Positions 6,001-44,503 of a stretch of 64,000 nucleotides of DNA are shown here, one piece after another (the first letter of the stretch is position 1; each line of letters begins with the position of its first letter). This DNA is from Chondrosia reniformis (Eukaryota; Porifera; Demospongiae; Chondrillida; Chondrillidae): assembly GCA_947172415.1 (NCBI GenBank), contig OX359193.1:8271501-8335500 (forward strand). The letters run 5' to 3'. Under the pieces are notes generated by a model. That model ran no database searches, was not told the origin of the DNA, and saw only the letters and a list, made by a program, of their open reading frames with translations. Both the position numbers and the translations under genes were made by a program.

Positions 6001-6168
6001 ACCAAATGTACATTACAGTACAGGAGTACGAAATTAATGTATGGTGAGAGATAGGGCAAATTTTAAGTTCCATCAAAATTTCAAAAACCCATTAGACATG
6101 CTCTATAGGTGTCTGTGAATGCTGACACAAAGTCACAGCTTCATAGCTTTCCATTCGATAGAGTTACA
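1..6168 (+). repeat. Satellite array 1 (about 170-bp monomers), 5' end outside the window
   Basis: Uninterrupted head-to-tail tandem repeats with a period of about 169-170 bp. Two main monomer classes alternate irregularly. Type A contains ACACCAAGTTTTAGCATCAA and TGTACATTACAGTACAGGAA. Type B contains GATACAAAGTCACAGCTTCA and ACAGCCCTCAATGTAAATTA. A sub-variant of A has an ATAACTTATTG segment with GACATTTGACAGAGGTATAG. All share TTAATGTATGGTGAGAGATA or a close variant. The array starts before base 1, because base 1 matches the interior of array 2 at 7,790. Short minus-strand open frames of 65-84 codons recur once per monomer and are by-products of the repeat, so no genes are called here. Confidence 0.97.
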
Positions 6169-7429
6169 GAACTCTAGTTAATGTATGTATTGTTAGAGAA
6201 AATTGCGTAATACCATATTATATGGCCGACCGTTAGAAGGTGCATATAAAGACTAAATTCGATACTATATCCGAAAATCTAGAATGCTTTCTAAATTTTA
6301 TTATACATTGGGAAATGCACTGTGTAGTAATTGATTGTTATTGAAGCACCATCTATCCATATAGAAGATATGGATCTCGTTAAAGTAAAATTTCGTCAAT
6401 CGACAGCCAACGAAACTCCAAAGAAAAAAAGTTGGACCATACCGAACGCTACCATCCACGACGCTCAGAGGCCGGGATCGTTGGTAACGTTCAACTTATC
6501 GAATCTGCCGAAGCAAATTACTGCCGAGTTGAGCATTGGGTGTCACTTGCGTGAGAAGAACCAGCTCTTCTCGATATGGCCGACTCATATGAATCCTAAG
6601 ATATCAGATGCCAATCCCACATTACGTGGAACCCCCCCGAAATCCGGATTATTGGTGAGCACGTCTCTATGGCACCAACCGATTAGGAGACAGCTTCAGA
6701 GTCTAAGCGCTACCAACCTCTATGGGAACCGCAACCACCATAGAGATGTGTCCAGGTAGGCCTACTATATAAGGTTTTTCGCTTCTATTTATATAAAGTT
6801 TTGCCCAAAGAAAACGGTTGTGGTTGGGGCTTTTTTATATATTTCTCGTTATTTCCAGATCAGTGAATTGTTCCAAGGAAATTTAAAGACATAGCCAGTA
6901 TTTGTGGATCATCTGAAAACTGGGGAAAGCGGAAAAAATCCTGTAAGTGTCTTGATGGGCCGAGGAGAACGACGTTTCTGATCCCAATTATTTTCGAGAA
7001 ATCGTCAATTTATTCCACTCTAATTCCAGACCAGTGAATCGTTCCAAGCAATTTTACACACATACGCAGTATTTCCAATACATCTCAAAACTGTGGCAAA
7101 TGGATAAAAGCCTGTATGTGTCTTGGTGGAGGGAGGAGAACGACTTTTTATGATACAGAAAACTAGAGATAGTGCGAGGTCCGATATTTATCGCCTGTAC
7201 TATATTAATGCCTATGATCGATATTTTAACTAGGCCGGCTGTATTCTAAGTCAAATTCCTAACTCCAGAGAAGATAATGTATAGATAAAATTTGCTAAAT
7301 AAGGTTTTTAAAGCAACTGTAGCTCCATAAATTATTTTTATATAATTTATTGTAGGATATACTCTGTATATACATACATGCATATGTGGTGAGAGATAGG
7401 CAAATATGAATAAAAATAAAAATCACGAA
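6169..7429. other. Unique inter-satellite cassette, copy 1
   Basis: Non-satellite segment of about 1.26 kb, clearly richer in GC and CpG than the flanking arrays. It holds an open frame (6370-6759). Downstream come two diverged direct modules starting at 6859 and 7030, 171 bp apart, each preceded by a polypyrimidine-CAG signal. An AT-rich tail runs up to an inverted satellite monomer. The same cassette recurs at 16,161 and 28,027. I recognise no transposase, terminal repeat or RNA gene in it. Confidence 0.85.
6370..6759 (+). CDS. Hypothetical open frame in cassette 1 (129 aa from first ATG)
   Basis: I do not recognise this frame. The reading frame is open from 6331, directly after an in-frame TAA. 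The first ATG is at 6370 (MDLVKVKFRQS), and it stops at 6757-6759. The protein is basic and Ser/Thr/Asn/Pro-rich, with a KKK cluster near its start, no signal peptide and no membrane segment. A GTAGGC donor-like site overlaps the stop codon (CAG|GTAGGC), with a candidate acceptor at 6856-6858. Splicing there would replace the last residues with about eight new codons before a stop. The frame is identical in the three cassette copies, but the DNA around it is identical too, so coding selection is not shown. It could be a fossil exon or a chance frame. Confidence 0.35.
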   Translation: MDLVKVKFRQSTANETPKKKSWTIPNATIHDAQRPGSLVTFNLSNLPKQITAELSIGCHLREKNQLFSIWPTHMNPKISDANPTLRGTPPKSGLLVSTSLWHQPIRRQLQSLSATNLYGNRNHHRDVSR

Positions 7430-7529
7430 AATTCTTTGGAAATCTTTCACAGAATTTAATGTACATTGAGGGCTGTAACTTTTTCAAATGGAAAGATATA
7501 GAGCTACTGCTCTCTTTCAGCATTCAGAG
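7430..7529 (-). repeat. Single satellite monomer in inverted orientation at cassette edge
   Basis: The reverse complement of this stretch reads like a diverged type-B monomer: GAATGCTGA, then ATCTTTCCATTTGA, GTTACAGCCCTCAATGTACA and TTAAATTCTG. All surrounding satellite is in the opposite orientation, so strand polarity flips here for about 100 bp. The same inverted piece occurs at 17,420-17,521 but is absent after cassette 3. Confidence 0.85.
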
Positions 7530-10500
7530 GAATCTGGTATTAAAAGTTAATGTATGGTGAGAGATAAGGCAAATTTAAAGTTCCATCAAAATTTCAAAAA
7601 CTCATTAGACATGCTCTCTAGGTGTCTGTGAATGCTGATACAAAGTCACAGCTTCATAGCTTTCCATTTGATATAGTTACAGCCCTCAATGTAAATTAAA
7701 TTCTGGTATACAAAGTTAATGTATGGTGAGATATAGGGCAAATGTAAAGATTTATAAAAATTTCAAAAACTCATTGAAAATGTTTCATACATGTCTGTGA
7801 ATGCTGACACCAAGTGTTAGCATCAAATCTTTCCATTTGACAGAGTTATAGCACCAAATGTACATTACAGTACAGGAATACGAAATTAATGTATGGTAAG
7901 AGATAGGGCAAATGTAAAGATTTATTAAAAAACTTATAACTTATTGCAAATGTTTCATACATGTTTGTGAATACTGACACCAAGTTTTAGCATCAAATCT
8001 TGACATTTGACAGAGTTATAGCACCAAATGTACATTACAGTACAGGAATACGAAGTTAATGTATGGTGAGAGATAGGGCAAATGTAAAGATTTATAAAAA
8101 ACTTATAACTTATTGAAAATGTTTCATACATGTTTGTGAATACTGACACCAAGTTTTAGCATCAAATCTTGACATTTGACAGAGGTATAGCACCAAATGT
8201 ACATTACAGTACAGGATTACGAAATTAATGTATGGTGAGAGATAGGGCAAATTTTAAGTTCCATGGAAATTTCAAAAACCCATTAGACATGCTCTATAGG
8301 TGTCTGTGAATGCTGATACAAAGTCACAGCTTCATAGCTTTCCATTTGATAGAGTTACAGCCCTCAATGTAAATTAAATTCTCGTTTACTAAGTTAATGT
8401 ATGGTGAGATATAGGGCAAATGTAAAGATTTATAAAAGTTTCAAAGACTCATTGAAAATGTTTCATACATGTCTGTGAATGCTGACACCAAGTTTTAGCA
8501 TCAAATCTTTCCATTTGACAGAGTTATAGCACCAAATGTACATTACAGTACAGGAATACGAAGTTAATGTATGGTGAGATATAGGGCAAATGTAAAGATT
8601 TATAAAAATTTCAAAAACTCATTGAAAATGTTTCATACATGTCTGTGAATGCTGACACCAAGTTTTAGCATCAAATCTTTCCATTTGACAGAGTTATAGC
8701 ACCAAATGTACATTACAGTACAGGAATACGAAATTAATGTATGGTAAGAGATAGGGCAAATGTAAAGATTTATAAAAAAGTTATAACTTATTGAAAATGT
8801 TTCATACATGTTTGTGAATACTGACACCAAGTTTTAGCATCAAATTTTGACATTTGACAGAGGTATAGCACCAAATGTACATTACAGTACAGGAATACGA
8901 AATTAATGTATGGTGAGAGATAGGGCAAATTTTAAGTTCCATCAAAATTTCAAAAACCCATTAGACATGCTCTATAGGTGTCTGTGAATGCTGATACAAA
9001 GTCACAGCTTCATAGCTTTCCATTTGATAGAGTTACAGCCCTCAATGTAAATTAAATTCTGGTATACAAAGTTAATGTATGGTGAGATATAGGGCAAATG
9101 TAAAGATTTATAAAAGTTTCAAAGACTCATTGAAAATGTTTCATACATGTCTGTGAATGCTGACACCAAGTTTTAGCATCAAATCTTTCCATTTGACAGA
9201 GTTATAGCACCAAATGTACATTACAGTACAGGAAAACGAAGTTAATGTATGGTGAGATATAGGGCAAATGTAAAGATTTATAAAAATTTCAAAAACTCAT
9301 TGAAAATGTTTCATACATGTCTGTGAATGCTGACACCAAGTTTTAGCATCAAATCTTTCCATTTGACAGAGTTATAGCACCAAATGTACATTACAGTACA
9401 GGAATACGAAATTAATGTATGGTAAGAGATAGGGCAAATGTAAAGATTTATAAAAATTTATAACTTATTGAAAATGTTTCATACATGTTTGTGAATACTG
9501 ACACCAAGTTTTAGCATCAAATTTTGACATTTGACAGAGGTATAGCACCAAATGTACATTACAGTACAGAAATACCAAATTAATGTATGGTGAGAGATAG
9601 GGCAAATTTTAAGTTCCATCAAAATTTCAAAAACCCATTAGACATGCTCTATAGGTGTCTGTGAATGCTGATACAAAGTCACAGCTTCATAGCTTTCCAT
9701 TTGATAGAGTTACAGCCCTCAATGTAAATTAAATTCTGGTATACAAAGTTAATGTATGGTGAGATATAGGGCAAATGTAAAGATTTATAAAAATTTCAAA
9801 AACTCATTGAAAATGTTTCATACATGTCTGTGAATGCTGACACCAAGTTTTAGCATCAAATCTTTCCATTTGACAGAGTTATAGCACCAAATGTACATTA
9901 CAGTACAGGAATACGAAATTAATGTATGGTAAGAGATAGGGCAAATGTAAAGATTTATAAAAGTTTCAAAGACTCATTGAAAATATTTGATACATGTCTG
10001 TGAATGCTGACACCAAGTTTTAGCATCAAATCTTTCCATTTGACAGAGTTATAGCACCAAATGTACATTACAGTACAGGAATACGAAGTTAATGTATGGT
10101 GAGATATAGGGCAAATGTAAAGATTTATAAAAGTTTCAAAGACTCATTGAAAATATTTCATACATGTCTGTGAATGCTGACACCAAGTTTTAGCATCAAA
10201 TCTTTCCATTTGACAGAGTTATAGCACCAAATGTACATTACAGTACAGGAATACGAAATTAATGTATGGTAAGAGATAGGGCAAATGTAAAGATTTATAA
10301 AAAAACTTATAACTTATTGAAAATGTTTCATATATGTTTGTGAATACTGTCACCAAGTTTTAGCATCAAATCTTGACATTTGACAGTGGTATAGCACCAA
10401 ATGTACATTACAGTACAGAAATACGAAATTAATGTATGGTGAGAGATAGGGCAAATTTTAAGTTCCATCAAAATTTCAAAAACCCATTAGACATGCTCTA

Positions 10501-13500
10501 TAGGTGTCTGTGAATGCTGATACAAAGTCACAGCTTCATAGCTTTCCATTTGATAGAGTTACAGCCCTCAATGTAAATTAAATTCTGGTATACAAAGTTA
10601 ATGTATGGTGAGATATAGGGCAAATGTAAAGATTTATAAAAGTTTCAAAGACTCATTGAAAATGTTTCATACATGTCTGTGAATGCTGACACCAAGTTTT
10701 AGCATCAAATCTTTCCATTTGACAGAGTTATAGCACCAAATGTACATTACAGTACAGGAATACGAAATTAATGTATGGTAAGAGATAGGGCAAATGTAAA
10801 GATTTATAAAAGTTTCAAAGACTCATTGAAAATGTTTCATACATGTCTGTGAATGCTGACACCAAGTTTTAGCATCAAATCTTTCCATTTGACAGAGTTA
10901 TAGCACCAAATGTACATTACAGTACAGGAATACGAAATTAATGTATGGTAAGAGATAGGGCAAATGTAAAGATTTATAAAAGTTTCAAAGACTCATTGAA
11001 AATATTTGATACATGTCTGTGAATGCTGACACCAAGTGTTAGCATCAAATCTTTCCATTTGACAGAGTTATAGCACCAAATGTACATTACAGTACAGGAA
11101 TACGAAGTTAATGTATGGTGAGATATAGGGCAAATGTAAAGATTTATAAAAATTTCAAAAACCCATTGGAAATGTTTCATACATGTTTGTGAATGCTGAC
11201 ACCAAGTTTTAGCATCAAATCTTTCCATTTGACAGAGTTATAGCACCAAATGTACATTACAGTACAGGAATACGAAATTAATGTATGGTAAGAGATAGGG
11301 CAAATGTAAAGATTTATAAAAAACTTATAACTTATTGAAAATGTTTCATACATGTTTGTGAATACTGACACCAAGTTTTAGCATCAAATTTTGACATTTG
11401 ACAGAGGTATAGCACCAAATGTACATTACAGCACAGGAATACGAAATTAATGTATGGTGAGAGATAGGGCAAATTTTAAGTTCCATCAAAATTTCAAAAA
11501 CCCATTAGACATGCTCTATAGGTGTCTGTGAATGCTGATACAAAGTCACAGCTTCATAGCTTTCCATTTGATAGAGTTACAGCCCTCAATGTAAATTAAA
11601 TTCTGGTATACAAAGTTAATGTATGGTGAGATATAGGGCAAATGTAAAGATTTATAAAAGTTTCAAAGACTCATTGCAAATGTTTCATACATGTCTGTGA
11701 ATGCTGACACCAAGTTTTAGCATCAAATCTTTCCATTTGACAGAGTTATAGCACCAAATGTACATTACAGTACAGGAATACGAAATTAATGTATGGTTAG
11801 AGATAGGGCAAATGTAAAGATTTATAAAAGTTTCAAAGACTCATTGAAAATATTTCATACATGTCTGTGAATGCTGACACCAAGTTTTAGCATCACATCT
11901 TTCCATTTGACAGAGTTATAGCACCAAATGTACATTACAGTACAGGAATACGAAGTTAATGTATGGTGAGATATAGGGCAAATGTAAAGATTTATAAAAG
12001 TTTCAAAGACTCATTGAAAATATTTGATACATGTCTGTGAATGCTGACACCAAGTTTTAGCATCAAATCTTTCCATTTGACAGAGTTATAGCACCAAATG
12101 TACATTACAGCACAGGAATACGAAGTTAATGTATGGTGAGATATAGGGCAAATGTAAAGATTTATAAAAGTTTCAAAGACTCATTGAAAATATTTGATAC
12201 ATGTCTGTGAATGCTGACACCAAGTTTTAGCATCAAATCTTTCCATTTGACAGAGTTATAGCACCAAATGTACATTACAGTACAGGAATACGAAATTAAT
12301 GTATGGTAAGAGATAGGGCAAATGTAAAGATTTATAAAAAAACTTATAACTTATTGAAAATGTTTCATATATGTTTGTGAACACTGACACCAAGTTTTAG
12401 CATCAAATCTTGACATTTGACAGAGGTATAGCACCAAATGTACATTACAGTACAGAAATACGAAATTAATGTATGGTGAGAGATAGGGCAAAGTTTAAGT
12501 TCCATCAAAATTTCAAAAACCCATTAGACATGCTCTATAGGTGTCTGTGAATGCTGATACAAAGTCACAGCTTCATATCTTTCCATTTGATAGAGTTACA
12601 GCCCTCAATGTAAATTAAATTCTGGTATACAAAGTTAATGTATGGTGAGATATAGGGCAAATGTAAAGATTAATAAAAATTTCAAAAACCCATTAGACAT
12701 GCTCTATAGGTGTCTGTGAATGCTGATACAAAGTCACAGCTTCATAGCTTTCCATTTGATAGAGTTACAGCCCTCAATGTAAATTAAATTCTGGTATACA
12801 AAGTTAATGTATGGTGAGATATAGGGCAAATGTAAAGATTTATAAAAATTTCAAAAACCCATTAGACATGCTCTATAGGTGTCTGTGAATGCTGATACAA
12901 AGTCACAGCTTCATAGCTTTCCATTTGATAGAGTTACAGCCCTCAATGTAAATTAAATTCTGGTATACAAAGTTAATGTATGGTGAGATATAGGGCAAAT
13001 GTAAAGATTTATAAAAGTTTCAAAGACTCATTGAAAATGTTTCATACATGTCTGTGAATGCTGACACCAAGTTTTAGCATCAAATCTTTCCATTTGACAG
13101 AGTTATAGCACCAAATGTACATTACAGTACAGGAATACGAAATTAATGTATGGTAAGAGATAGGGCAAATGTAAAGATTTATAAAAGTTTCAAAGACTCA
13201 TTGAAAATATTTGATACATGTCTGTGAATGCTGACACCAAGTTTTAGCATCAAATCTTTCCATTTGACAGAGTTATAGCACCAAATGTACATTACAGTAC
13301 AGGAATACGAAGTTAATGTATGGTGAGATATAGGGCAAATGTAAAGATTTATAAAAGTTTCAAAGACTCATTGAAAATATTTGATACATGTCTGTGAATG
13401 CTGACACCAAGTTTTAGCATCAAATCTTTCCATTTGACAGAGTTATAGCACCAAATGTACATTACAGTACAGGAATACGAAGTTAATGTATGGTGAGATA

Positions 13501-16160
13501 TAGGGCAAATGTAAAGATTTATAAAAATTTCAAAAACCCATTGGAAATGTTTCATACATGTTTGTGAATGCTGACAACAAGTTTTAGCATCAAATCTTTC
13601 CATTTGACAGAGTTATAGCACCAAATGTACATTACAGTACAGGAATACGAAATTAATGTATGGTAAGAGATAGGGCAAATGTAAAGATTTATAAAGAAAC
13701 TTATAACTTATTGAAAATGTTTCATATATGTTTGTGAACACTGACACCAAGTTTTAGCATCAAATCTTGACATTTGACAGAGGTATAGCACCAAATGTAC
13801 ATTACAGTACAGAAATACGAAATTAATGTATGGTGAGAGATAGGGCAAATTTTAAGTTCCATCAAAATTTCAAAAACCCATTAGACATGCTCTATAGGTG
13901 TCTGTGAATGCTGATACAAAGTCACAGCTTCATATCTTTCCATTTGATAGAGTTACAGCCCTCAATGTAAATTAAATTCTGGTATACAAAGTTAATGTAT
14001 GGTGAGATATAGGGCAAATGTAAAGATTTATAAAAATTTCAAAAACCCATTAGACATGCTCTATAGGTGTCTGTGAATGCTGATACAAAGTCACAGCTTC
14101 ATAGCTTTCCATTTGATAGAGTTACAGCCCTCAATGTAAATTAAATTCTGGTATACAAAGTTAATGTATGGTGAGATATAGGGCAAATGTAAAGATTTAT
14201 AAAAATTTCAAAAACCCATTAGACATGCTCTATAGGTGTCTGTGAATGCTGATACAAAGTCACAGCTTCATAGCTTTCCATTTGATAGAGTTACAGCCCT
14301 CAATGTAAATTAAATTCTGGTATACAAAGTTAATGTATGGTGAGATATAGGGCAAATGTAAAGATTTATAAAAGTTTCAAAGACTCATTGAAAATGTTTC
14401 ATACATGTCTGTGAATGCTGACACCAAGTTTTAGCATCAAATCTTTCCATTTGACAGAGTTATAGCACCAAATGTACATTACAGTACAGGAATACGAAAT
14501 TAATGTATGGTAAGAGATAGGGCAAATGTAAAGATTTATAAAAGTTTCAAAGACTCATTGAAAATATTTGATACATGTCTGTGAATGCTGACACCAAGTT
14601 TTAGCATCAAATCTTTCCATTTGACAGAGTTATAGCACCAAATGTACATTACAGTACAGGAATACGAAGTTAATGTATGGTGAGATATAGGGCAAATGTA
14701 AAGATTTATAAAAGTTTCAAAGACTCATTGAAAATATTTGATACATGTCTGTGAATGCTGACACCAAGTTTTAGCATCAAATCTTTCCATTTGACAGAGT
14801 TATAGCACCAAATGTACATTACAGTACAGGAATACGAAGTTAATGTATGGTGAGATATAGGGCAAATGTAAAGATTTATAAAAATTTCAAAAACCCATTG
14901 GAAATGTTTCATACATGTTTGTGAATGCTGACAACAAGTTTTAGCATCAAATCTTTCCATTTGACAGAGTTATAGCACCAAATGTACATTACAGTACAGG
15001 AATACGAAATTAATGTATGGTAAGAGATAGGGCAAATGTAAAGATTTATAAAAAAACTTATAACTTATTGAAAATGTTTCATACATGTTTGTGAACACTG
15101 ACACCAAGTTTTAGCATCAAATCTTGACATTTGACAGAGGTATAGCACCAAATGTACATTACAGTACAGAAATACGAAATTAATGTATGGTGAGAGATAG
15201 GGCAAATTTTAAGTTCCATCAAAATTTCAAAAACCCATTAGACATGCTCTATAGGTGTCTGTGAATGCTGATACAAAGTCACAGCTTCATATCTTTCCAT
15301 TTGATAGAGTTACAGCCCTCAATGTAAATTAAATTCTGGTATACAAAGTTAATGTATGGTGAGATATAGGGCAAATGTAAAGATTTATAAAAATTTCAAA
15401 AACCCATTAGACATGCTCTATAGGTGTCTGTGAATGCTGATACAAAGTCACAGCTTCATATCGTTCCATTGGATAGAGTTACAGCCCTCACTGTAAGTTA
15501 AATTCTGGTATACAAAGTTAATGTATGGTGAGATATAGGGCAAATGTAAAGATTTATAAAAGTTTCAAAAACTCATTGAAAATGTTTCATACATGTCTGT
15601 GAATGCTGACACCAAGTGTTAGCATCAAATCTTTCCATTTGACAGAGTTATAGCACCAAATGTACATTACAGTACAGGAATACGAAGTTAATGTATGGTG
15701 AGAGATAGGGCAAATTTTAAGTTCCATCAAAATTTCAAAAACCCACTACACATGCTCTATAGGTGTTTGTGAATTCTGACACAAAGTCACAGCTTCATAG
15801 CTTTCCATTTGATAGAGTTACAGCTCTCAATGTAAATTAAATTCCGATAAACAATGTTAATGTATGGTGAGAGATAGGGCAAATGTAAAGATTTATAAAA
15901 AAATTATAACTTATTGAAAATGTTTCATACATGTTTGTGAATACTGACACCAAGGTATAGCATCAAATCGTGACATTTGACAGAGTTATAGCACCAAATG
16001 TACATTACAGTACAGGAGTACGAAATTAATGTATGGTGAGAGATAGGGCAAATTTTAAGTTCCATCAAAATTTCAAAAACCCATTAGACATGCTCTATAG
16101 GTGTCTGTGAATGCTGACACAAAGTCACAGCTTCATAGCTTTCCATTCGATAGAGTTACA
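7530..16160 (+). repeat. Satellite array 2 (about 8.6 kb, roughly 51 monomers)
   Basis: Same monomer classes and polarity as array 1. It aligns to array 1 at offset 7,789 near its start, 8,805 in the middle and 9,992 toward its end. Array 2 therefore carries two extra blocks of about 1,016 and 1,187 bp, equal to six and seven monomers. The right half (from about 13.3 kb) is almost base-for-base identical to array 1. Confidence 0.97.
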
Positions 16161-17419
16161 GAACTCTAGTTAATGTATGTATTGTTAGAGAAAATTGCGT
16201 AATACCATATTATATGGCCGACCGTTAGAAGGTGCATATAAAGACTAAATTCGATACTATATCCGAAAATCTAGAATGCTTTCTAAATTTTATTATACAT
16301 TGGGAAATGCACTGTGTAGTAATTGATTGTTATTGAAGCACCATCTATCCATATAGAAGATATGGATCTCGTTAAAGTAAAATTTCGTCAATCGACAGCC
16401 AACGAAACTCCAAAGAAAAAAAGTTGGACCATACCGAACGCTACCATCCACGACGCTCAGAGGCCGGGATCGTTGGTAACGTTCAACTTATCGAATCTGC
16501 CGAAGCAAATTACTGCCGAGTTGAGCATTGGGTGTCACTTGCGTGAGAAGAACCAGCTCTTCTCGATATGGCCGACTCATATGAATCCTAAGATATCAGA
16601 TGCCAATCCCACATTACGTGGAACCCCCCCGAAATCCGGATTATTGGTGAGCACGTCTCTATGGCACCAACCGATTAGGAGACAGCTTCAGAGTCTAAGC
16701 GCTACCAACCTCTATGGGAACCGCAACCACCATAGAGATGTGTCCAGGTAGGCCTACTATATAAGGTTTTTCGCTTCTATTTATATAAAGTTTTGCCCAA
16801 AGAAAACGGTTGTGGTTGGGGCTTTTTTATATATTTCTCGTTATTTCCAGATCAGTGAATTGTTCCAAGGAAATTTAAAGACATAGTCAGTATTTGTGGA
16901 TCATCTGAAAACTGGGGAAAGCGGAAAAATCCTGTAAGTGTCTTGATGGGCCGAGGAGAACGACGTTTCTGATCCCAATTATTTTCGAGAAATCGTCAAT
17001 TTATTCCACTCTAATTCCAGACCAGTGAATCGTTCCAAGCAATTTTACACACATACGCAGTATTTCCAATACATCTCAAAACTGTGGCAAATGGATAAAA
17101 GCCTGTATGTGTCTTGGTGGAGGGAGGAGAACGACTTTTTATGATACAGAAAACTAGAGATAGTGCGAGGTCCGATATTTATCGCCTGTACTATATTAAT
17201 GCCTATGATCGATATTTTAACTAGGCCGGCTGTATTCTAAGTCAAATTCCTAACTCCAGAGAGGATAATGTATAGATAAAATTTGCTAAATAAGGTTTTT
17301 AAAGCAACTGTAGCTCCATAAATTATTTTTATATAATTTATTTTAGGATATACTCTGTATATACATACATGCATATGTGGTGAGAGATAGGCAAATATGA
17401 ATAAAAATAAAAATCACGA
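16161..17419. other. Unique inter-satellite cassette, copy 2
   Basis: Near-identical to the cassette at 6,169. The few differences I see lie outside the open frame: one fewer A in a poly-A run near 16,925, single substitutions near 16,887, 17,264 and 17,343, and one in the adjoining inverted monomer region. It has the same internal layout of open frame, two 171-bp-spaced modules and AT-rich tail. Confidence 0.85.
16362..16751 (+). CDS. Hypothetical open frame in cassette 2
   Basis: Second copy of the 129-codon frame, identical at nucleotide level to the copy at 6370-6759. The start is the first ATG after the upstream in-frame TAA. It has the same donor-like CAG|GTAGGC at the stop. Function unknown, and whether it is translated is unknown. 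Confidence 0.35.
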   Translation: MDLVKVKFRQSTANETPKKKSWTIPNATIHDAQRPGSLVTFNLSNLPKQITAELSIGCHLREKNQLFSIWPTHMNPKISDANPTLRGTPPKSGLLVSTSLWHQPIRRQLQSLSATNLYGNRNHHRDVSR

Positions 17420-17521
17420 AAATTCTTTGGAAATCTTTCACAGAATTTAATGTACATTGAGGGCTGTAACTTTTTCAAATGGAAAGATATAGAGCTACTG
17501 CTCTCTTTCAGCATTCAGAGG
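17420..17521 (-). repeat. Inverted satellite monomer at edge of cassette 2
   Basis: Copy of the inverted monomer at 7,430-7,529 with the same junction to direct-orientation satellite. It differs by one visible base at the right junction (AGGCATCTGG here, AGGAATCTGG in copy 1). Confidence 0.85.
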
Positions 17522-20500
17522 CATCTGGTATTAAAAGTTAATGTATGGTGAGAGATAAGGCAAATTTTAAGTTCCATCAAAATTTCAAAAACTCATTAGA
17601 CATGCTCTCTAGGTGTCTGTGAATGCTGATACAAAGTCACAGCTTCATAGCTTTCCATTTGATATAGTTACAGCCCTCAATGTAAATTAAATTCTGGTAT
17701 ACAAAGTTAATGTATGGTGAGATATAGGGCAAATGTAAAGATTTATAAAAATTTCAAAAACTCATTGAAAATGTTTCATACATGTCTGTGAATGCTGACA
17801 CCAAGTGTTAGCATCAAATCTTTCCATTTGACAGAGTTATAGCACCAAATGTACATTACAGTACAGGAATACGAAATTAATGTATGGTAAGAGATAGGGC
17901 AAATGTAAAGATTTATTAAAAAACTTATAACTTATTGCAAATGTTTCATACATGTTTGTGAATACTGACACCAAGTTTTAGCATCAAATCTTGACATTTG
18001 ACAGAGGTATAGCACCAAATGTACATTACAGTACAGGAATACGAAGTTAATGTATGGTGAGAGATAGGGCAAATGTAAAGATTTATAAAAAACTTATAAC
18101 TTATTGAAAATGTTTCATACATGTTTGTGAATACTGACACCAAGTTTTAGCATCAAATCTTGACATTTGACAGAGGTATAGCACCAAATGTACATTACAG
18201 TACAGGAATACGAAATTAATGTATGGTGAGAGATAGGGCAAATTTTAAGTTCCATCAAAATTTCAAAAACCCATTAGACATGCTCTATAGGTGTCTGTGA
18301 ATGCTGATACAAAGTCACAGCTTCATAGCTTTCCATTTGATAGAGTTACAGCCCTCAATGTAAATTAAATTCTGGTATACAAAGTTAATGTATGGTGAGA
18401 TATAGGGCAAATGTAAAGATTTATAAAAGTTTCAAAGACTCATTGAAAATGTTTCATACATGTCTGTGAATGCTAACACCAAGTTTTAGCATCAAATCTT
18501 TCCATTTGACAGAGTTATAGCACCAAATGTACATTACAGTACAGGAATACGAAATTAATGTATGGTAAGAGATAGGGCAAATGTAAAGATTTATAAAAAA
18601 CTTATAACTTATTGAAAATGTTTCATACATGTTTGTGAATACTGACACCACGTTTTAGCATCAAATTTTGACATTTGACAGAGGTATAGCACCAAATGTA
18701 CATTACAGTACAGGAATACGAAATTAATGTATGGTGAGAGATAGGGCATATTTTAAGTTCCATCAAAATTTCAAAAACCCATTAGACATGCTCTATAGGT
18801 GTCTGTGAATGCTGATACAAAGTCACAGCTTCATATCGTTCCATTTGATAGAGTTACAGCCCTCAATGTAAATTAAATTCTGGTATACAAAGTTAATGTA
18901 TGGTGAGATATAGGGCAAATGTAAAGATTTATAAAAGTTTCAAAGACTCATTGAAAATGTTTCATACATGTCTGTGAATGCTGACACCAAGTTTTAGCAT
19001 CAAATCTTTCCATTTGACAGAGTTATAGCACCAAATGTACATTACAGTACAGGAATACGAAGTTAATGTATGGTGAGATATAGGGCAAATGTAAAGATTT
19101 ATAAAAATTTCAAAAACTCATTGAAAATGTTTCATACATGTCTGTGAATGCTGACACCAAGTGTTAGCATCAAATCTTTCCATTTGACAGAGTTATAGCA
19201 CCAAATGTACATTACAGTACAGGAATACGAAATTAATGTATGGTAAGAGATAGGGCAAATGTAAAGATTTATAAAAAACTTATAACTTATTGAAAATGTT
19301 TCATACATGTTTGTGAATACTGACACCAAGTTTTAGCATCAAATTTTGACATTTGACAGAGGTATAGCACCAAATGTACATTACAGTACAGGAATACGAA
19401 GTTAATGTATGGTGAGAGATAGGGCAAATGTAAAGATTTATAAAAAACTTATAACTTATTGAAAATGTTTCATACATGTTTGTGAATACTGACACCAAGT
19501 TTTAGCATCAAATCTTGACATTTGACAGAGGTATAGCACCAAATGTACATTACAGTACAGGAATACGAAATTAATGTATGGTGAGAGATAGGGCAAATTT
19601 TAAGTTCCATCAAAATTTCAAAAACCCATTAGACATGCTCTATAGGTGTCTGTGAATGCTGATACAAAGTCACAGCTTCATAGCTTTCCATTTGATAGAG
19701 TTACAGCCCTCAATGTAAATTAAATTCTGGTATACAAAGTTAATGTATGGTGAGATATAGGGCAAATGTAAAGATTTATAAAAGTTTCAAAGACTCATTG
19801 AAAATGTTTCATACATGTCTGTGAATGCTGACACCAAGTTTTAGCATCAAATCTTTCCATTTGACAGAGTTATAGCACCAAATGTACATTACAGTACAGG
19901 AATACGAAATTAATGTATGGTAAGAGATAGGGCAAATGTAAAGATTTATAAAAAACTTATAACTTATTGAAAATGTTTCATACATGTTTGTGAATACTGA
20001 CACCAAGTTTTAGCATCAAATTTTGATATTTGACAGAGGTATAGCACCAAATGTACATTACAGTACAGGAATACGAAATTAATGTATGGTGAGAGATAGG
20101 GCAAATTTTAAGTTCCATCAAAATTTCAAAAACTCATTAGACATGCTCTATAGGTGTCTGTGAATGCTGATACAAAGTCACAGCTTCATATCGTTCCATT
20201 TGATAGAGTTACAGCCCTCAATGTAAATTAAATTCTGGTATACAAAGTTAATGTATGGTGAGATATAGGGCAAATGTAAAGATTTATAAAAGTTTCAAAG
20301 ACTCATTGAAAATGTTTCATACATGTCTGTGAATGCTGACACCAAGTTTTAGCATCAAATCTTTCCATTTGACAGAGTTATAGCACCAAATGTACATTAC
20401 AGTACAGGAATACGAAGTTAATGTATGGTGAGATATAGGGCAAATGTAAAGATTTATAAAAATTTCAAAAACTCATTGAAAATGTTTCATACATGTCTGT

Positions 20501-23500
20501 GAATGCTGACACCAAGTGTTAGCATCAAATCTTTCCATTTGACAGAGTTATAGCACCAAATGTACATTACAGTACAAGTATATGAAATTAATGTATGGTA
20601 AGAGATAGGGCAAATGTAAAGATTTATAAAAAAAGTTATAACTTATTGAAAATGTTTCATACATGTTTGTGAATACTGACACCAAGTTTTAGCATCAAAT
20701 CTTGACATTTGACAGAGGTATAGCACCAAATGTACATTACAGTACAGGAATACGAAATTAATGTATGGTGAGAGATAGGGCATATTTTAAGTTCCATCAA
20801 AATTTCAAAAACCCATTAGACATGCTCTATATGTGTCTGTGAATGCTGATACAAAGTCACAGCTTCATATCTTTCCATTTGATAGAGTTACAGCCCTCAA
20901 TGTAAATTAAATTCTGGTATACAAAGTTAATGTATGGTGAGATATAGGGCAAATGTAAAGATTTATAAAAGTTTCAAAGACTCATTGAAAATGTTTCATA
21001 CATGTCTGTGAATGCTGACACCAAGTTTTAGCATCAAATCTTTCCATTTGACAGAGTTATAGCACCAAATGTACATTACAGTACAGGAATACGAAGTTAA
21101 TGTATGGTGAGATATAGGGCAAATGTAAAGATTTATAAAAGTTTCAAAGACTCATTGAAAATGTTTCATACATGTCTGTGAATGCTGACACCAAGTTTTA
21201 GCATCAAATCTTTCCATTTGACAGAGTTATAGCACCAAATGTACATTACAGTACAGGAATACGAAGTTAATGTATGGTGAGATATAGGGCAAATGTAAAG
21301 ATTTATAAAAATTTCAAAAACTCATTGAAAATGTTTCATACATGTCTGTGAATGCTGACACCAAGTGTTAGCATCAAATCTTTCCATTTGACAGAGTTAT
21401 AGCACCAAATGTACATTACAGTACAAGTATATGAAATTAATGTATGGTAAGAGATAGGGCAAATGTAAAGATTTATAAAAAAAGTTATAACTTATTGAAA
21501 ATGTTTCATACATGTTTGTGAATACTGACACCAAGTTTTAGCATCAAATCTTGACATTTGACAGAGGTATAGCACCAAATGTACATTACAGTACAGGAAT
21601 ACGAAATTAATGTATGGTGAGAGATAGGGCATATTTTAAGTTCCATCAAAATTTCAAAAACCCATTAGACATGCTCTATATGTGTCTGTGAATGCTGATA
21701 CAAAGTCACAGCTTCATATCTTTCCATTTGATAGAGTTACAGCCCTCAATGTAAATTAAATTCTGGTATACAAAGTTAATGTATGGTGAGATATAGGGCA
21801 AATGTAAAGATTTATAAAAGTTTCAAAGACTCATTGAAAATGTTTCATACATGTCTGTGAATGCTGACACCAAGTTTTAGCATCAAATCTTTCCATTTGA
21901 CAGAGTTATAGCACCAAATGTACATTACAGTACAGGAATACGAAGTTAATGTATGGTGAGATATAGGGCAAATGTAAAGATTTATAAAAGTTTCAAAGAC
22001 TCATTGAAAATGTTTCATACATGTCTGTGAATGCTGACACCAAGTTTTAGCATCAAATCTTTCCATTTGACAGAGTTATAGCACCAAATGTACATTACAG
22101 TACAGGAATACGAAGTTAATGTATGGTGAGATATAGGGCAAATGTAAAGATTTATAAAAATTTCAAAAACTCATTGAAAATGTTTCATACATGTCTGTGA
22201 ATGCTGACACCAAGTGTTAGCATCAAATCTTTCCATTTGACAGAGTTATAGCACCAAATGTACATTACAGTACAAGTATATGAAATTAATGTATGGTAAG
22301 AGATAGGGCAAATGTAAAGATTTATAAAAAAAGTTATAACTTATTGAAAATGTTTCATACATGTTTGTGAATACTGACACCAAGTTTTAGCATCAAATCT
22401 TGACATTTGACAGAGGTATAGCACCAAATGTACATTACAGTACAGGAATACGAAATTAATGTATGGTGAGAGATAGGGCATATTTTAAGTTCCATCAAAA
22501 TTTCAAAAACCCATTAGACATGCTCTATATGTGTCTGTGAATGCTGATACAAAGTCACAGCTTCATATCTTTCCATTTGATAGAGTTACAGCCCTCAATG
22601 TAAATTAAATTCTGGTATACAAAGTTAATGTATGGTGAGATATAGGGCAAATGTAAAGATTTATAAAAGTTTCAAAGACTCATTGAAAATGTTTCATACA
22701 TGTCTGTGAATGCTGACACCAAGTTTTAGCATCAAATCTTTCCATTTGACAGAGTTATAGCACCAAATGTACATTACAGTACAGGAATACGAAGTTAATG
22801 TATGGTGAGATATAGGGCAAATGTAAAGATTTATAAAAGTTTCAAAGACTCATTGAAAATGTTTCATACATGTCTGTGAATGCTGACACCAAGTTTTAGC
22901 ATCAAATCTTTCCATTTGACAGAGTTATAGCACCAAATGTACATTACAGTACAGGAATACGAAGTTAATGTATGGTGAGATATAGGGCAAATGTAAAGAT
23001 TTATAAAAATTTCAAAAACTCATTGAAAATGTTTCATACATGTCTGTGAATGCTGACACCAAGTGTTAGCATCAAATCTTTCCATTTGACAGAGTTATAG
23101 CACCAAATGTACATTACAGTACAAGTATATGAAATTAATGTATGGTAAGAGATAGGGCAAATGTAAAGATTTATAAAAAAAGTTATAACTTATTGAAAAT
23201 GTTTCATACATGTTTGTGAATACTGACACCAAGTTTTAGCATCAAATCTTGACATTTGACAGAGGTATAGCACCAAATGTACATTACAGTACAGGAATAC
23301 GAAATTAATGTATGGTGAGAGATAGGGCATATTTTAAGTTCCATCAAAATTTCAAAAACCCATTAGACATGCTCTATATGTGTCTGTGAATGCTGATACA
23401 AAGTCACAGCTTCATATCTTTCCATTTGATAGAGTTACAGCCCTCAATGTAAATTAAATTCTGGTATACAAAGTTAATGTATGGTGAGATATAGGGCAAA

Positions 23501-26500
23501 TGTAAAGATTTATAAAAGTTTCAAAGACTCATTGAAAATGTTTCATACATGTCTGTGAATGCTGACACCAAGTTTTAGCATCAAATCTTTCCATTTGACA
23601 GAGTTATAGCACCAAATGTACATTACAGTACAGGAATACGAAGTTAATGTATGGTGAGATATAGGGCAAATGTAAAGATTTATAAAAGTTTCAAAGACTC
23701 ATTGAAAATGTTTCATACATGTCTGTGAATGCTGACACCAAGTTTTAGCATCAAATCTTTCCATTTGACAGAGTTATAGCACCAAATGTACATTACAGTA
23801 CAGGAATACGAAGTTAATGTATGGTGAGATATAGGGCAAATGTAAAGATTTATAAAAATTTCAAAAACTCATTGAAAATGTTTCATACATGTCTGTGAAT
23901 GCTGACACCAAGTGTTAGCATCAAATCTTTCCATTTGACAGAGTTATAGCACCAAATGTACATTACAGTACAAGTATATGAAATTAATGTATGGTAAGAG
24001 ATAGGGCAAATGTAAAGATTTATAAAAAAAGTTATAACTTATTGAAAATGTTTCATACATGTTTGTGAATACTGACACCAAGTTTTAGCATCAAATCTTG
24101 ACATTTGACAGAGGTATAGCACCAAATGTACATTACAGTACAGGAATACGAAATTAATGTATGGTGAGAGATAGGGCATATTTTAAGTTCCATCAAAATT
24201 TCAAAAACCCATTAGACATGCTCTATATGTGTCTGTGAATGCTGATACAAAGTCACAGCTTCATATCTTTCCATTTGATAGAGTTACAGCCCTCAATGTA
24301 AATTAAATTCTGGTATACAAAGTTAATGTATGGTGAGATATAGGGCAAATGTAAAGATTTATAAAAGTTTCAAAGACTCATTGAAAATGTTTCATACATG
24401 TCTGTGAATGCTGACACCAAGTTTTAGCATCAAATCTTTCCATTTGACAGAGTTATAGCACCAAATGTACATTACAGTACAGGAATACGAAGTTAATGTA
24501 TGGTGAGATATAGGGCAAATGTAAAGATTTATAAAAGTTTCAAAGACTCATTGAAAATGTTTCATACATGTCTGTGAATGCTGACACCAAGTTTTAGCAT
24601 CAAATCTTTCCATTTGACAGAGTTATAGCACCAAATGTACATTACAGTACAGGAATACGAAGTTAATGTATGGTGAGATATAGGGCAAATGTAAAGATTT
24701 ATAAAAATTTCAAAAACTCATTGAAAATGTTTCATACATGTCTGTGAATGCTGACACCAAGTTTTAGCATCAAATCTTTCCATTTGACAGAGTTATAGCA
24801 CCAAATGTACATTACAGTACAGGAATACGAAGTTAATGTATGGTGAGATATAGGGCAAATGTAAAGATTTATAAAAATTTCAAAAACTCATTGAAAATGT
24901 TTCATACATGTCTGTGAATGCTGACACCAAGTGTTAGCATCAAATCTTTCCATTTGACAGAGTTATAGCACCAAATGTACATTACAGTACAAGTATATGA
25001 AATTAATGTATGGTAAGAGATAGGGCAAATGTAAAGATTTATAAAAAAAGTTATAACTTATTGAAAATGTTTCATACATGTTTGTGAATACTGACACCAA
25101 GTTTTAGCATCAAATCTTGACATTTGACAGAGGTATAGCACCAAATGTACATTACAGTACAGGAATACGAAATTAATGTATGGTGAGAGATAGGGCATAT
25201 TTTAAGTTCCATCAAAATTTCAAAAACCCATTAGACATGCTCTATATGTGTCTGTGAATGCTGATACAAAGTCACAGCTTCATATCTTTCCATTTGATAG
25301 AGTTACAGCCCTCAATGTAAATTAAATTCTGGTATACAAAGTTAATGTATGGTGAGATATAGGGCAAATGTAAAGATTTATAAAAGTTTCAAAGACTCAT
25401 TGAAAATGTTTCATACATGTCTGTGAATGCTGACACCAAGTTTTAGCATCAAATCTTTCCATTTGACAGAGTTATAGCACCAAATGTACATTACAGTACA
25501 GGAATACGAAGTTAATGTATGGTGAGATATAGGGCAAATGTAAAGATTTATAAAAATTTCAAAAACTCATTGAAAATGTTTCATACATGTCTGTGAATGC
25601 TGACACCAAGTGTTAGCATCAAATCTTGACATTTGACAGAGTTATAGCACCAAATGTACATTACAGTACAAGTATATGAAATTAATGTATGGTAAGAGAT
25701 AGGGCAAATGTAAAGATTTATAAAAAAAGTTATAACTTATTGAAAATGTTTCATACATGTTTGTGAATACTGACACCAAGTTTTAGCATCAAATCTTGAC
25801 ATTTGACAGAGGTATAGCACCAAATGTACATTACAGTACAGGAATACGAAATTAATGTATGGTGAGAGATAGGGCAAATTTTAAGTTCCATCAAAATTTC
25901 AAAAACCCATTAGACATGCTCTATAGGTGTCTGTGAATGCTGATACAAAGTCACAGCTTCATATCTTTCCATTTGATAGAGTTACAGCCCTCAATGTAAA
26001 TTAAATTCTGGTATACAAAGTTAATGTATGGTGAGATATAGGGCAAATGTAAAGATTTATAAAAGTTTCAAAGACTCATTGAAAATGTTTCATACATGTC
26101 TGTGAATGCTGACACCAAGTTTTAGCATCAAATCTTTCCATTTGACAGAGTTATAGCACCAAATGTACATTACAGTACAGGAATACGAAGTTAATGTATG
26201 GTGAGATATAGGGCAAATGTAAAGATTTATAAAAGTTTCAAAGACTCATTGAAAATATTTCATACATGTCTGTGAATGCTGACACCAAGTTTTAGCATCA
26301 AATCTTTCCATTTGACAGAGTTATAGCACCAAATGTACATTACAGTACAGGAATACGAAGTTAATGTATGGTGAGATATAGGGCAAATGTAAAGATTTAT
26401 AAAAATTTCAAAAACCCATTGGAAATGTTTCATACATGTTTGTGAATGCTGACACCAGGTTTTAGCATCAAATCTTGACATTTGACAGAGTTATAGCACC

Positions 26501-28026
26501 AAATGTACATTACAGTACAGGAATACGAAATTAATGTATGGTGAGATATAGGGCAAATGTAAAGATTTATAAAAGTTTCAAAGACTCATTGAAAATATTT
26601 CATACATGTCTGTGAATGCTGACACCAAGTTTTAGCATCAAATCTTTCCATTTGACAGAGTTATAGCACCAAATGTACATTACAGTACAGGAATACGAAG
26701 TTAATGTATGGTGAGATATAGGGCAAATGTAAAGATTTATAAAAATTTCAAAAACCCATTGGAAATGTTTCATACATGTTTGTGAATGCTGACACCAAGT
26801 TTTAGCATCAAATCTTTCCATTTGACAGAGTTATAGCACCAAATGTACATTACAGTACAGGAATACGAAATTAATGTATGGTAAGAGATAGGGCAAATGT
26901 AAAGATTTATAAAAAAACTTATAACTTATTGAAAATGTTTCATATATGTTTGTGAATACTGACACCAAGTTTTAGCATCAAATCTTGACATTTGACAGAG
27001 GTATAGCACCAAATGTACATTACAGTACAGGAATACGAAATTAATGTATGGTGAGAGATAGGGCAAATTTTAAGTTCCATCAAAATTTCAAAAACCCATT
27101 AGACATGCTCTATAGGTGTCTGTGAATGCTGATACAAAGTCACAGCTTCATAGCTTTCCATTTGATAGAGTTACAGCCCTCAATGTAAATTAAATTCTGG
27201 TATACAAAGTTAATGTATGGTGAGATATAGGGCAAATGTAAAGATTTATAAAAATTTCAAAAACCCATTAGACATGCTCTATAGGTGTCTGTGAATGCTG
27301 ATACAAAGTCACAGCTTCATTTCGTTCCATTTGATAGAGTTACAGCCCTCACTGTAAATTAAATTCTGGTATACAAAGTTAATGTATGGTGAGATATAGG
27401 GCAAATGTAAAGATTTATAAAAGTTTCAAAAACTCATTGAAAATGTTTCATATATACATGTCTGTGAATGCTGACACCAAATGTTAGCATCAAATCTTTC
27501 CATTTGACAGAGTTATAGCACCAAATGTACATTACAGTACAGGAATACGAAGTTAATGTATAGTGAGAGATAGGGCAAATTTTAAGTTCCATCAAAATTT
27601 CAAAAACCCACTACACATGCTCTATAGGTGTTTGTGAATTCTGACACAAAGTCACAGCTTCATAGCTTTCCATTTGATAGAGTTACAGCTCTCAATGTAA
27701 ATTAAATTCCGATAAACAATGTTAATGTATGGTGAGAGATAGGGCAAATGTAAAGATTTATAAAAAAAATTATAACTTATTGAAAATGTTTCATACATGT
27801 TTGTGAATACTGACACCAAGGTTTAGCATCAAATCTTGACATTTGACAGAGTTATAGCACCAAATGTACATTACAGTACAGGAGTACGAAATTAATGTAT
27901 GGTGAGAGATAGGGCAAATTTTAAGTTCCATCAAAATTTCAAAAACCCATTAGACATGCTCTATAGGTGTCTGTGAATGCTGACACAAAGTCACAGCTTC
28001 ATAGCTTTCCATTCGATAGAGTTACA
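17522..28026 (+). repeat. Satellite array 3 (about 10.5 kb, roughly 62 monomers)
   Basis: Same monomer family. Its beginning matches array 2 at offset 9,991 and its end at offset 11,866, so it is about 1.9 kb (11 monomers) longer than array 2. Unlike arrays 1 and 2, its centre is organised as a regular higher-order repeat (see 20,300-25,740). Confidence 0.97.
20300..25740 (+). repeat. 849-bp higher-order repeat (five monomers) inside array 3
   Basis: The marker ACAAGTATATGAAATTAATG replaces the usual CAGGAATACGAA form in one monomer per unit. It appears near 20,573, 21,422, 22,271, 23,120, 23,968, 24,988 and 25,668. Most intervals are about 849 bp, five monomers in the order A, A, marker A, ATAACTTATTG-type A, B. 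One interval is about 1,020 bp (an extra A) and the last about 680 bp (one A missing). Full units appear almost identical, whereas adjacent monomers within a unit differ clearly, which is the signature of a recently amplified higher-order repeat. Confidence 0.9.
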
Positions 28027-29149
28027 GAACTCTAGTTAATGTATGTATTGTTAGAGAAAATTGCGTAATACCATATTATATGGCCGACCGTTAGAAGGTG
28101 CATATAAAGACTAAATTCGATACTATATCCGAAAATCTAGAATGCTTTCTAAATTTTATTATACATTGGGAAATGCACTGTGTAGTAATTGATTGTTATT
28201 GAAGCACCATCTATCCATATAGAAGATATGGATCTCGTTAAAGTAAAATTTCGTCAATCGACAGCCAACGAAACTCCAAAGAAAAAAAGTTGGACCATAC
28301 CGAACGCTACCATCCACGACGCTCAGAGGCCGGGATCGTTGGTAACGTTCAACTTATCGAATCTGCCGAAGCAAATTACTGCCGAGTTGAGCATTGGGTG
28401 TCACTTGCGTGAGAAGAACCAGCTCTTCTCGATATGGCCGACTCATATGAATCCTAAGATATCAGATGCCAATCCCACATTACGTGGAACCCCCCCGAAA
28501 TCCGGATTATTGGTGAGCACGTCTCTATGGCACCAACCGATTAGGAGACAGCTTCAGAGTCTAAGCGCTACCAACCTCTATGGGAACCGCAACCACCATA
28601 GAGATGTGTCCAGGTAGGCCTACTATATAAGGTTTTTCGCTTCTATTTATATAACGTTTTACCCAAAGAAAACGGTTGTGGTTGGGGCTTTTTTTATATA
28701 TTTCTCGTTATTTCCAGATCAGTGAATTATTCCAAGCAAGTTTAAAGACATAGTCAGTATTAGTGGTTCATCTGAAAACTGGGAAAAGCGAAAAAATTCC
28801 TGTAAGTGTCTTGATGGGCCGAGGAGAACGACTTTTCTGATCCCAATTATTTTCGAGAAATCGTCAATTTATTCCACTTTAATTCCAGACCAGTGAATCG
28901 TTCCAAGCAATTTTACACACATACGCAGTATTTCCAATACATCTCAAAACTGTGGCAAATGGATAAAAGCCTGTATGTGTCTTGGTGGAGGGAGGAGAGC
29001 GACTTTTCATGATACAGAAAACAAAAGATAGTGCGAGGTCCGATATTTATCGCTAGTACGATATTTAATGTCTATGATCGATATTTCAACTGCCTTACTC
29101 GTCAAATTTCTAACTCAAGAGACAATAATGTATTGCTAAATAATGTTTT
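28027..29149. other. Unique inter-satellite cassette, copy 3 (diverged right half)
   Basis: Matches cassettes 1 and 2 without visible change through about 28,650. It then accumulates substitutions, for example in the module at 28,718-28,815 and in the tail after 29,010. The inverted monomer at the right edge is missing, and the cassette runs directly into diverged direct monomers. This is the outermost cassette, facing the gene-bearing part of the window. Confidence 0.82.
28228..28617 (+). CDS. Hypothetical open frame in cassette 3
   Basis: Third copy of the 129-codon frame, identical in sequence to the other two even though DNA about 50 bp downstream has diverged. The start is the first in-frame ATG after the TAA at the head of the frame. 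Product unrecognised. Confidence 0.35.
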   Translation: MDLVKVKFRQSTANETPKKKSWTIPNATIHDAQRPGSLVTFNLSNLPKQITAELSIGCHLREKNQLFSIWPTHMNPKISDANPTLRGTPPKSGLLVSTSLWHQPIRRQLQSLSATNLYGNRNHHRDVSR

Positions 29150-29511
29150 TGGACGTGCTCTATACTTGTCTGTGAATGCTGACACAAAGTATTAGCTTCA
29201 TATCTTTCCAATTGATAGAGTTAGAGCCCTCAATGAACATTAAATTCTGATATACAAAGTTAATGTATGGTGAGAGATAGGGAAAATTTTAAGTTCCATC
29301 AAAATTTCAAAACCTCTTTGGACCTGCTCTATAGGCATCTTTGAATGTTAACACAAAGTTACAGCTTCATATCGTTCAGTTTGATAGAGTGTCAGCCCTC
29401 ACTGTACATTAAATTATCGAATGCAAAGTTAATGTATGGTGAGAGATAGGGCAAAATTTCAAAAACTCTTTGGCGATGCTCTATAGATGTCTGTGAATGC
29501 TGACACAAATT
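29150..29511 (+). repeat. Diverged satellite monomers at the array boundary
   Basis: About two and a half degraded type-B monomers (TGCTGACACAAAG, GATAGAGTTAGAGCCCTCAA, TTAATGTATGGTGAGAGATA twice), with many substitutions and a shortened last unit. This is the usual picture at the edge of a satellite array, where homogenisation fails. Satellite similarity stops about 29,511. Confidence 0.9.
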
Positions 29512-29653
29512 CCAAAACAGGGGTGATGTGTATGGCTTAGCCATGGCGTATCCATGGAGTCGTATATCTATGATGGAGCAATGCAAGTTACAGAACATGT
29601 GACTCTATGAATATATTTAGAAGCTAATGAATATCATTAAGTACTGCACTATC

Positions 29654-44461: not shown

Positions 44462-44503
44462 TAGAGGGAGCATCTTACGTAATACATAGTAGGCTATATA
44501 TTA

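Follow-up and report, generated by a model that had tools for sequence, protein, structure and literature searches.

The window analysed here, i.e., the whole stretch of 64 kb under study, covers positions 8271501-8335500 of chromosome C5 (8,804,818 bases; C1 to C14 denote the chromosomes) of the sponge Chondrosia reniformis, and our subject is a 170-bp satellite array that lies about 0.5 Mb from one end of this chromosome. The array spans bases 1-28030 of the window, is broken twice by a core of about 1.1-1.2 kb that is not built of monomers, and meets a third core at its right edge, from 28031; to the right of 29.5 kb the sequence is gene-bearing. Between the second and the third core the array holds a five-monomer higher-order repeat (HOR), which an earlier note on this DNA had likened to primate alpha satellite and proposed as a candidate centromeric repeat. 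The plus strand given below for the arrays rests on a separate analysis of the monomers, the strand labels of overlapping matches being unreliable.

1..6172, plus strand: 170-bp monomer array, extending left beyond the window, with relatives immediately to the left
6173..7350, plus strand: core copy 1, not monomer-derived, including a conserved island at about 6400-6765
7450..16164, plus strand: 170-bp monomer array separating core 1 from core 2, its first ~100 bp partly inverted or degenerate
16165..17341, plus strand: second copy of the core, at a distance of 9992 bp from the first
17441..28030, plus strand: 170-bp monomer array separating core 2 from core 3, containing the HOR tract
20260..25740, plus strand: 849-bp five-monomer HOR tract, including one six-monomer and one four-monomer unit, delimited by marker positions, lag-849 identity, unit identity and monomer clustering
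28031..29150, plus strand: core copy 3
29149..29512, plus strand: last degenerate monomers ahead of the gene-bearing sequence

The HOR tract is ~5.5 kb long and built of monomers of 169/170 bp that are AT-rich (about 32% GC). Its marker, ACAAGTATATG, matches seven times within the window (starts 20574, 21423, 22272, 23121, 23970, 24989 and 25668), always inside 20574-25678; chance would give 0.15 matches, and seven copies were reached in 0/100 dinucleotide shuffles. The spacings are four times 849 bp, then 1019 bp (six monomers) and 679 bp (four monomers), and the long and the short unit together equal two standard units (1019 + 679 = 2 x 849). Four consecutive 849-bp units are 100.00% identical to one another, lag-849 identity is 100% across about 20260-23830, and the top autocorrelation lag of 20400-25740 is again 849 (0.953). 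When 149 monomers were clustered, divergence in the tract was 2.9% at lag 5 and 10-14% at the other lags shown, with the exception of lag 10 (3.0%). The marker recurring every 849 bp, the single six- and four-monomer units and the HOR within a nucleosome-length satellite, all claimed in the earlier note, are therefore borne out. Its further statement, that units are nearly identical while the monomers inside a unit differ, holds in full for the units and in part for the monomers: within one 849-bp unit two of the five are mutually identical, a third resembles them at 96%, and the remaining two are 71-91% like the rest. Cores 1 and 2 define a larger repeat of 9992 bp, at which lag the sequence to their left is 98-100% identical over about 3 kb; because of this, the 849-bp HOR is seen to be nested in a larger core-plus-monomers repeat. 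By itself, the HOR is an ordinary young satellite amplification.

In the genome, reported at 117.37 Mb in 14 chromosomes with a mitochondrion of 17.45 kb (PMC12181767), the family is widely spread. A 23-base monomer anchor gave 15,837 matches at up to three mismatches (8358 forward, 7479 reverse), and its reversed control pattern gave 0 genome-wide. A 36-mer of the core island matched 880 times at up to three mismatches and a short form of the island with 29 nucleotides deleted 750 times at up to two (two sets that overlap without being one set); the pattern of the core 3' end matched 125 times. Among the matches listed we mapped 83 clusters, with at least one on each of the 14 chromosomes: 22 on C1, one each on C12 and C13, and 3-11 on the others. 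For the short-form island at up to one mismatch, a search complete for C1, the clusters of that chromosome lie at 0.07-3.0 Mb and 6.0-10.3 Mb, and more cores were found at 5.68 Mb. A query of 350 bases taken from the tract (39 scored out of 1611 candidates; best 150 of 291 matches) had its nearest relatives among the matches listed (92-98%) on the same chromosome, no more than about 0.6 Mb away, and copies on other chromosomes were at most 88% alike. Core-to-core periods in other clusters were 2466, 3195 and 2295 bp, each twice, and 2472 bp once. Individual clusters bear their own diagnostic changes and periods, which indicates local homogenisation, and this together with the many tandem loci is the picture of a dispersed satellite with local HORs. 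The only other pure-monomer array examined, a 5-kb stretch on C7, showed no multimer period longer than 170 bp; the monomer and island patterns had no exact match in viral contigs. Two further observations belong to the same family. At locus L017 (about 840-891), the 170-bp monomers give way to diverged, oppositely oriented monomer sequence, an inverted junction by eye and also by the strand labels, and on C5 a domain of reverse transcriptase and the end of a satellite core both repeat at 7,123-bp spacing (6702346/6709469 and 6704051/6711174), where a retroelement was probably co-amplified with the satellite unit.

The position of the clusters was judged against Helitron_like_N domains, of which at least 133 matches (best 150 of 153 candidates) are present on every one of the 14 chromosomes, each with a single central range that takes up 7-38% of its length. 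With 83 satellite clusters and 119 Helitron places, taken among the matches listed, not a single cluster lay inside the Helitron range of its own chromosome (0/83 vs 13.9 expected under uniform placement; nominal probability 2e-7, clusters treated as independent). Counted by chromosome tenths, the clusters number 17, 10, 4, 0, 0, 2, 10, 11, 13 and 16, and the Helitron places 0, 0, 3, 34, 58, 22, 2, 0, 0 and 0. The RVT_1 domain (best 150 of 1688 candidates) was tried as a second marker of the centres and discarded as unusable, because its places spread across arms and centre. On C5, three Helitron Rep domains at 4589442, 4601407 and 4613372, with exact 11,965-bp spacing and equal score, represent tandem Helitron copies.

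Other satellites occupy the central ranges. Eight stretches were fetched inside them, six being 5 kb long with positions chosen sequence-blind (C1, C7, C8, C9, C12 and C14); tandem repeats make up 100, 100, 99, 100, 89 and 96% of these six, respectively, and 1 and 22% of the other two, which lie between tandem Helitron copies on C5. None of the eight gave a match to the 170-bp monomer or the core. A 13-bp unit (ACATACAACTAGT, about 64-70% unit match) occurs in the C1, C8, C12 and C14 stretches and at the start of the C9 stretch (L078, L080, L082, L083 and L081, respectively) and fills most of 4/6 sampled 5-kb stretches, and a 123-bp unit makes up the C7 stretch and most of the C9 stretch. A 39-mer of the 13-bp family has 4597 genome matches, the best 100 exact ones of which (on C1-C6) lie at 0.27-0.59 of chromosome length, save for seven overlapping matches at C3 7.0035 Mb.

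For the 123-bp family, a 56-mer gave 165 genome matches at up to two mismatches, and we worked with the best 100, a set complete to one mismatch (the other 65 have two). Twelve chromosomes have one compact locus each among these, two of the loci (C3 and C5) resting on a single match, and C4 and C6 have none. Eleven of the 12 loci lie inside the Helitron range, and that of C3 (2.57 Mb) lies 0.3 Mb outside it, within the span of the 13-bp matches listed. A longer 123-bp query placed a further locus on C10, at 3.19 Mb, next to that at 3.33 Mb; 10 of its 130 candidates were scored, its own C7 source was missing from these, and more loci are possible. On seven chromosomes the monomers run plus and then minus, forming inverted halves among the matches listed:

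C1, 4.249-4.274 Mb, both strands: 123-bp locus
C2, 5.662-5.676 Mb, both strands: 123-bp locus
C7, 3.80-3.84 Mb, both strands: 123-bp locus
C8, 3.116-3.137 Mb, both strands: 123-bp locus
C9, 3.650-3.671 Mb, both strands: 123-bp locus
C11, 3.200-3.227 Mb, both strands: 123-bp locus
C13, 3.150-3.168 Mb, both strands: 123-bp locus

The plus half on C8 and the minus half on C7 are one match each, and C7 has one extra plus match beyond; the loci on C3, C5, C10, C12 and C14 show a single strand among the matches listed. At the axis between the inverted arrays a 145-bp tandem array was present in all three axes examined (C1, C9 and C2):

C1, L084 216-1878: 145-bp array, 11.5 copies
C9, L085 309-2285: 145-bp array, 13.7 copies
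C2, L086 1-598: 145-bp array in a 600-base axis sample, same family as on C1 and C9

A length of 145 bp is that of the nucleosome core. Queries of the 13-, 123- and 145-bp families matched neither the window nor any of loci L001-L075, and the essential-base CENP-B motif was not found in two 123-bp samples.

Two further features lie in the core of the 170-bp family.

6400..6765, strand of any transcript not assigned: conserved island within the core (0.9% divergence among 21 cores vs 8.8% in the 5' flank)
6370..6759, plus strand: open frame of 129 amino acids over the island, shifted in 20/20 independently chosen cores

A first set of cores (31 rows, or 30 distinct places with the window's first core counted twice) was chosen by overall BLAST score, and ten further loci came from exact or one-mismatch island matches (L040-L043 and L045-L048), from the core end (L044) and from monomers (L049). 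Because these routes of selection favour conserved islands, a second set of 20 cores was picked by a 3'-end pattern outside the island and compared with the window's first core (210 pairs, gaps excluded). The contrast was upheld: mean pairwise divergence falls from 8.8% in the 5' flank to 0.9% in the island of ~365 bp and is 4.7% further 3', and in 14 pairs whose 5' flanks differ by 15-30% the island still diverges by 1.1%. One core copy with an about 30% diverged 5' flank, picked from exact island matches, differs by 0-3 per 40 bases in the bins of 6413-6772. The 129-residue frame is open in 27/31 of the BLAST-chosen rows, mostly close relatives of the window's copy; in the independently chosen cores it is shifted by a 29-nt deletion (19 cores) or a 22-nt deletion (one core), and forms of the island lacking 29, 22 or 4 nt occur side by side. 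We therefore rejected a protein-coding core, the frame being probably not the selected product, and regard nucleotide-level constraint or preferential gene conversion as likelier. The frame had no Pfam match at E up to 0.01, a chance-level match alone against PDB (E 0.78), and no relative in viral contigs. Two splice-like motifs, a donor-like CAG/GTAGGC at the island end and the first acceptor-like motif after the island, TTATTTCCAG, are unchanged in 21/21 cores, and four later ones are exact in 15, 16, 13 and 17 of the 21. Rfam gave no family at the gathering score over the window and none at E up to 5 on the core, and a tRNA search found none; a SNORD47 candidate in part of the HOR was dismissed at 18-19 bits vs a gathering score of 50. 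The RNA fold of 6500-6800 (z = -2.12; 2/100 shuffles as good) is not decisive.

Taken together, we consider, with a probability of roughly 85%, that the repeat is a young local HOR in a dispersed composite satellite family of the chromosome arms, that it is not centromeric, and that the 123-, 145- and 13-bp families nearer the centres are the better candidates. The structure of the family, its dispersal, the mapped clusters outside the central Helitron ranges and the local HOR are matters of direct observation, and the rest is a scenario. In this scenario, a five-monomer block of the 170-bp satellite would have been amplified in tandem inside one C5 array by unequal exchange or replication slippage, unequal exchange being the presumed engine. 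The C5 array itself is one member of a composite family, i.e., a core plus a variable number of 170-bp monomers, that sits in arm clusters on all 14 chromosomes and appears homogenised cluster by cluster. Local gain and loss in tandem, by unequal exchange or slippage, would thereby account for the perfect units, the complementary six- and four-monomer units and the cluster-specific variants.

Several other explanations have to be set beside it. Perfectly identical units are just where assemblers may miscount copies, yet it is most improbable that the exact 849-bp periodicity is an assembly artefact: the HiFi depth of about 70-fold, the primary-assembly consensus quality of 69.8, and a tract shorter than the mean read implied by 10.31 Gb in 0.80 million reads, all as reported for this genome (PMC12181767), speak against it. 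Little more credit can be given to the idea that the 170-bp satellite and its HOR form a centromeric repeat acting like primate alpha satellite, as the earlier note had proposed. The nucleosome-length monomer, the real HOR, the AT-richness and the presence on all 14 chromosomes would fit; nevertheless, no mapped cluster falls in a central Helitron range, the six sampled central stretches are filled by other satellites, the HOR was found in one tract and is missing from the other pure-monomer array checked, and the CENP-B box had 0 matches at up to three mismatches in the 64-kb window. In place of one major location per chromosome, C1 has 22 clusters, on both arms, and at least three were mapped on 12/14 chromosomes. 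The likeness to alpha satellite thus survives for the ~170-bp monomers and the near-identical units of the tract, but the HOR is local, its family is dispersed, and we infer that the family lacks centromere function. Some points pull the other way. Chromosomes other than C1 are under-sampled among the matches listed (as with the single clusters of C12 and C13), an isolated exact monomer match at C1 5,015,882, excluded from the cluster count, lies inside the C1 Helitron range, and some ranges are wide (C2, 38%; C6, 27% through a single outlying copy). The true centromere positions are themselves inferred, and polycentric or holocentric chromosomes can have dispersed satellites that are centromeric.

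How the clusters came to be scattered is a separate matter, for which rolling-circle transposition, as in the HINE elements of the oyster, is a possible carrier to new places. In its strong form, i.e., that the arrays are the central repeats of a non-autonomous rolling-circle transposon (HINE/Helentron) whose transposition seeded the clusters, as for oyster Cg170, this seems to us unlikely, though worth keeping in view. Dispersal over every chromosome and on either strand, a constant non-repeat module joined to a monomer of about 170 bp, and the abundance of Helitron Rep domains in this genome all agree with it, and a close published parallel exists (PMC7492417). In a survey of 24 edges read by eye (one place twice, some being core boundaries rather than array ends), the left edges of L026, L034, L036, L043 and L044 share a similar starting region within the monomer, and this could mark a defined end; the right ends, however, fall at varied points, and neither a shared terminal module nor a target duplication was seen in the few ends inspected, three isolated units having been compared at both ends for shared short matches. 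Furthermore, the Helitron Rep copies sit in the central ranges, which hold 0/83 mapped clusters, and monomer or core was present in 0/6 Helitron loci with 1.5 kb of flanks. As described for the oyster, the dispersed Cg170/HindIII arrays, with monomers of 140-180 bp, are tied to constant non-repeat modules like those of the sponge, but Cg_HINE runs from left module through array to right module and has a palindrome as well as subterminal inverted repeats, whereas the sponge core has monomers on both sides and a strongly conserved island (PMC7492417). DINE-1/HINE elements are likewise dispersed, non-coding and may bear tandem repeats, but the few sponge ends inspected showed none of the termini that define them (PMC4067079). 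It is about equally doubtful that the island is a multi-copy functional RNA gene or promoter, with the 170-bp arrays as spacer, kept in many copies like ribosomal DNA or 5S units. The sharp drop in divergence, persisting in pairs with diverged flanks, and the invariant donor-like and first acceptor-like motifs are what such a gene might display; the absence of any Rfam family or tRNA in the searches above, the weaker conservation of the later splice-like motifs and the side-by-side deletion forms are not, and gene conversion could yield the same pattern.

Returning to the young local HOR in a dispersed arm family, we may ask what would serve the centromere instead. Judged from sequence, the 123-, 145- and 13-bp central families would be better candidates than the 170-bp family, and the 123-bp satellite appears to be the best candidate among them. 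A more specific arrangement, which we put forward tentatively and at somewhat less than even odds, is that each chromosome has about one centromere locus, compact and tens of kb long, in which inverted (convergent) 123-bp arrays surround about a dozen 145-bp repeats amid 13-bp satellite and Helitrons, the 170-bp HOR family being confined to the arms with its conserved, possibly transcribed island. The fission yeast centromere has a central core with inverted flanks, a layout that to our knowledge has not been described as a standard plan of animal centromeres. An inverted-repeat centromere has been reported in Candida tropicalis (PMC4741521).

Primate alpha satellite consists of about 170-bp monomers amplified as multimers, with near-identical units and partly divergent monomers within a unit. 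The sponge repeat shares all three traits and differs in that its HOR is one ~5.5-kb tract, the family around it being dispersed over the arms and containing a non-repeat core, in the missing CENP-B-box match in the window, and in the absence of the 170-bp family from the sampled central stretches. A judgement based solely on HOR structure and nucleosome-length monomers would have led to the wrong centromere. The genome-wide map leads elsewhere and offers candidate-centromere coordinates on 12/14 sponge chromosomes, so that the identity of centromeres in an early-branching animal lineage can be tested directly. In the open-licence literature, as far as its accessible text goes, no description of a sponge centromeric or HOR satellite was found: the main text of the genome report contains 'centromer', 'satellite' and 'telomer' 0 times each (PMC12181767), and passages from two other papers name centromeres only in regard to an assembly split or to unicellular relatives (PMC7385117, PMC10232365). 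The core island raises a question of its own, namely how scattered copies remain nearly identical despite diverging flanks.

In the gene-bearing part of the window, two minisatellites about 4 kb apart (32514-32785 and 36954-37283) have a common 12-bp unit, CCCCTCCCTTGG in rotation. On the minus strand, adjoining genes at 43208-44500 and 45072-46282 have frames that are nearly alike by eye; in the former, one frame matches the APH phosphotransferase family above the cut-off and the next frame below it.

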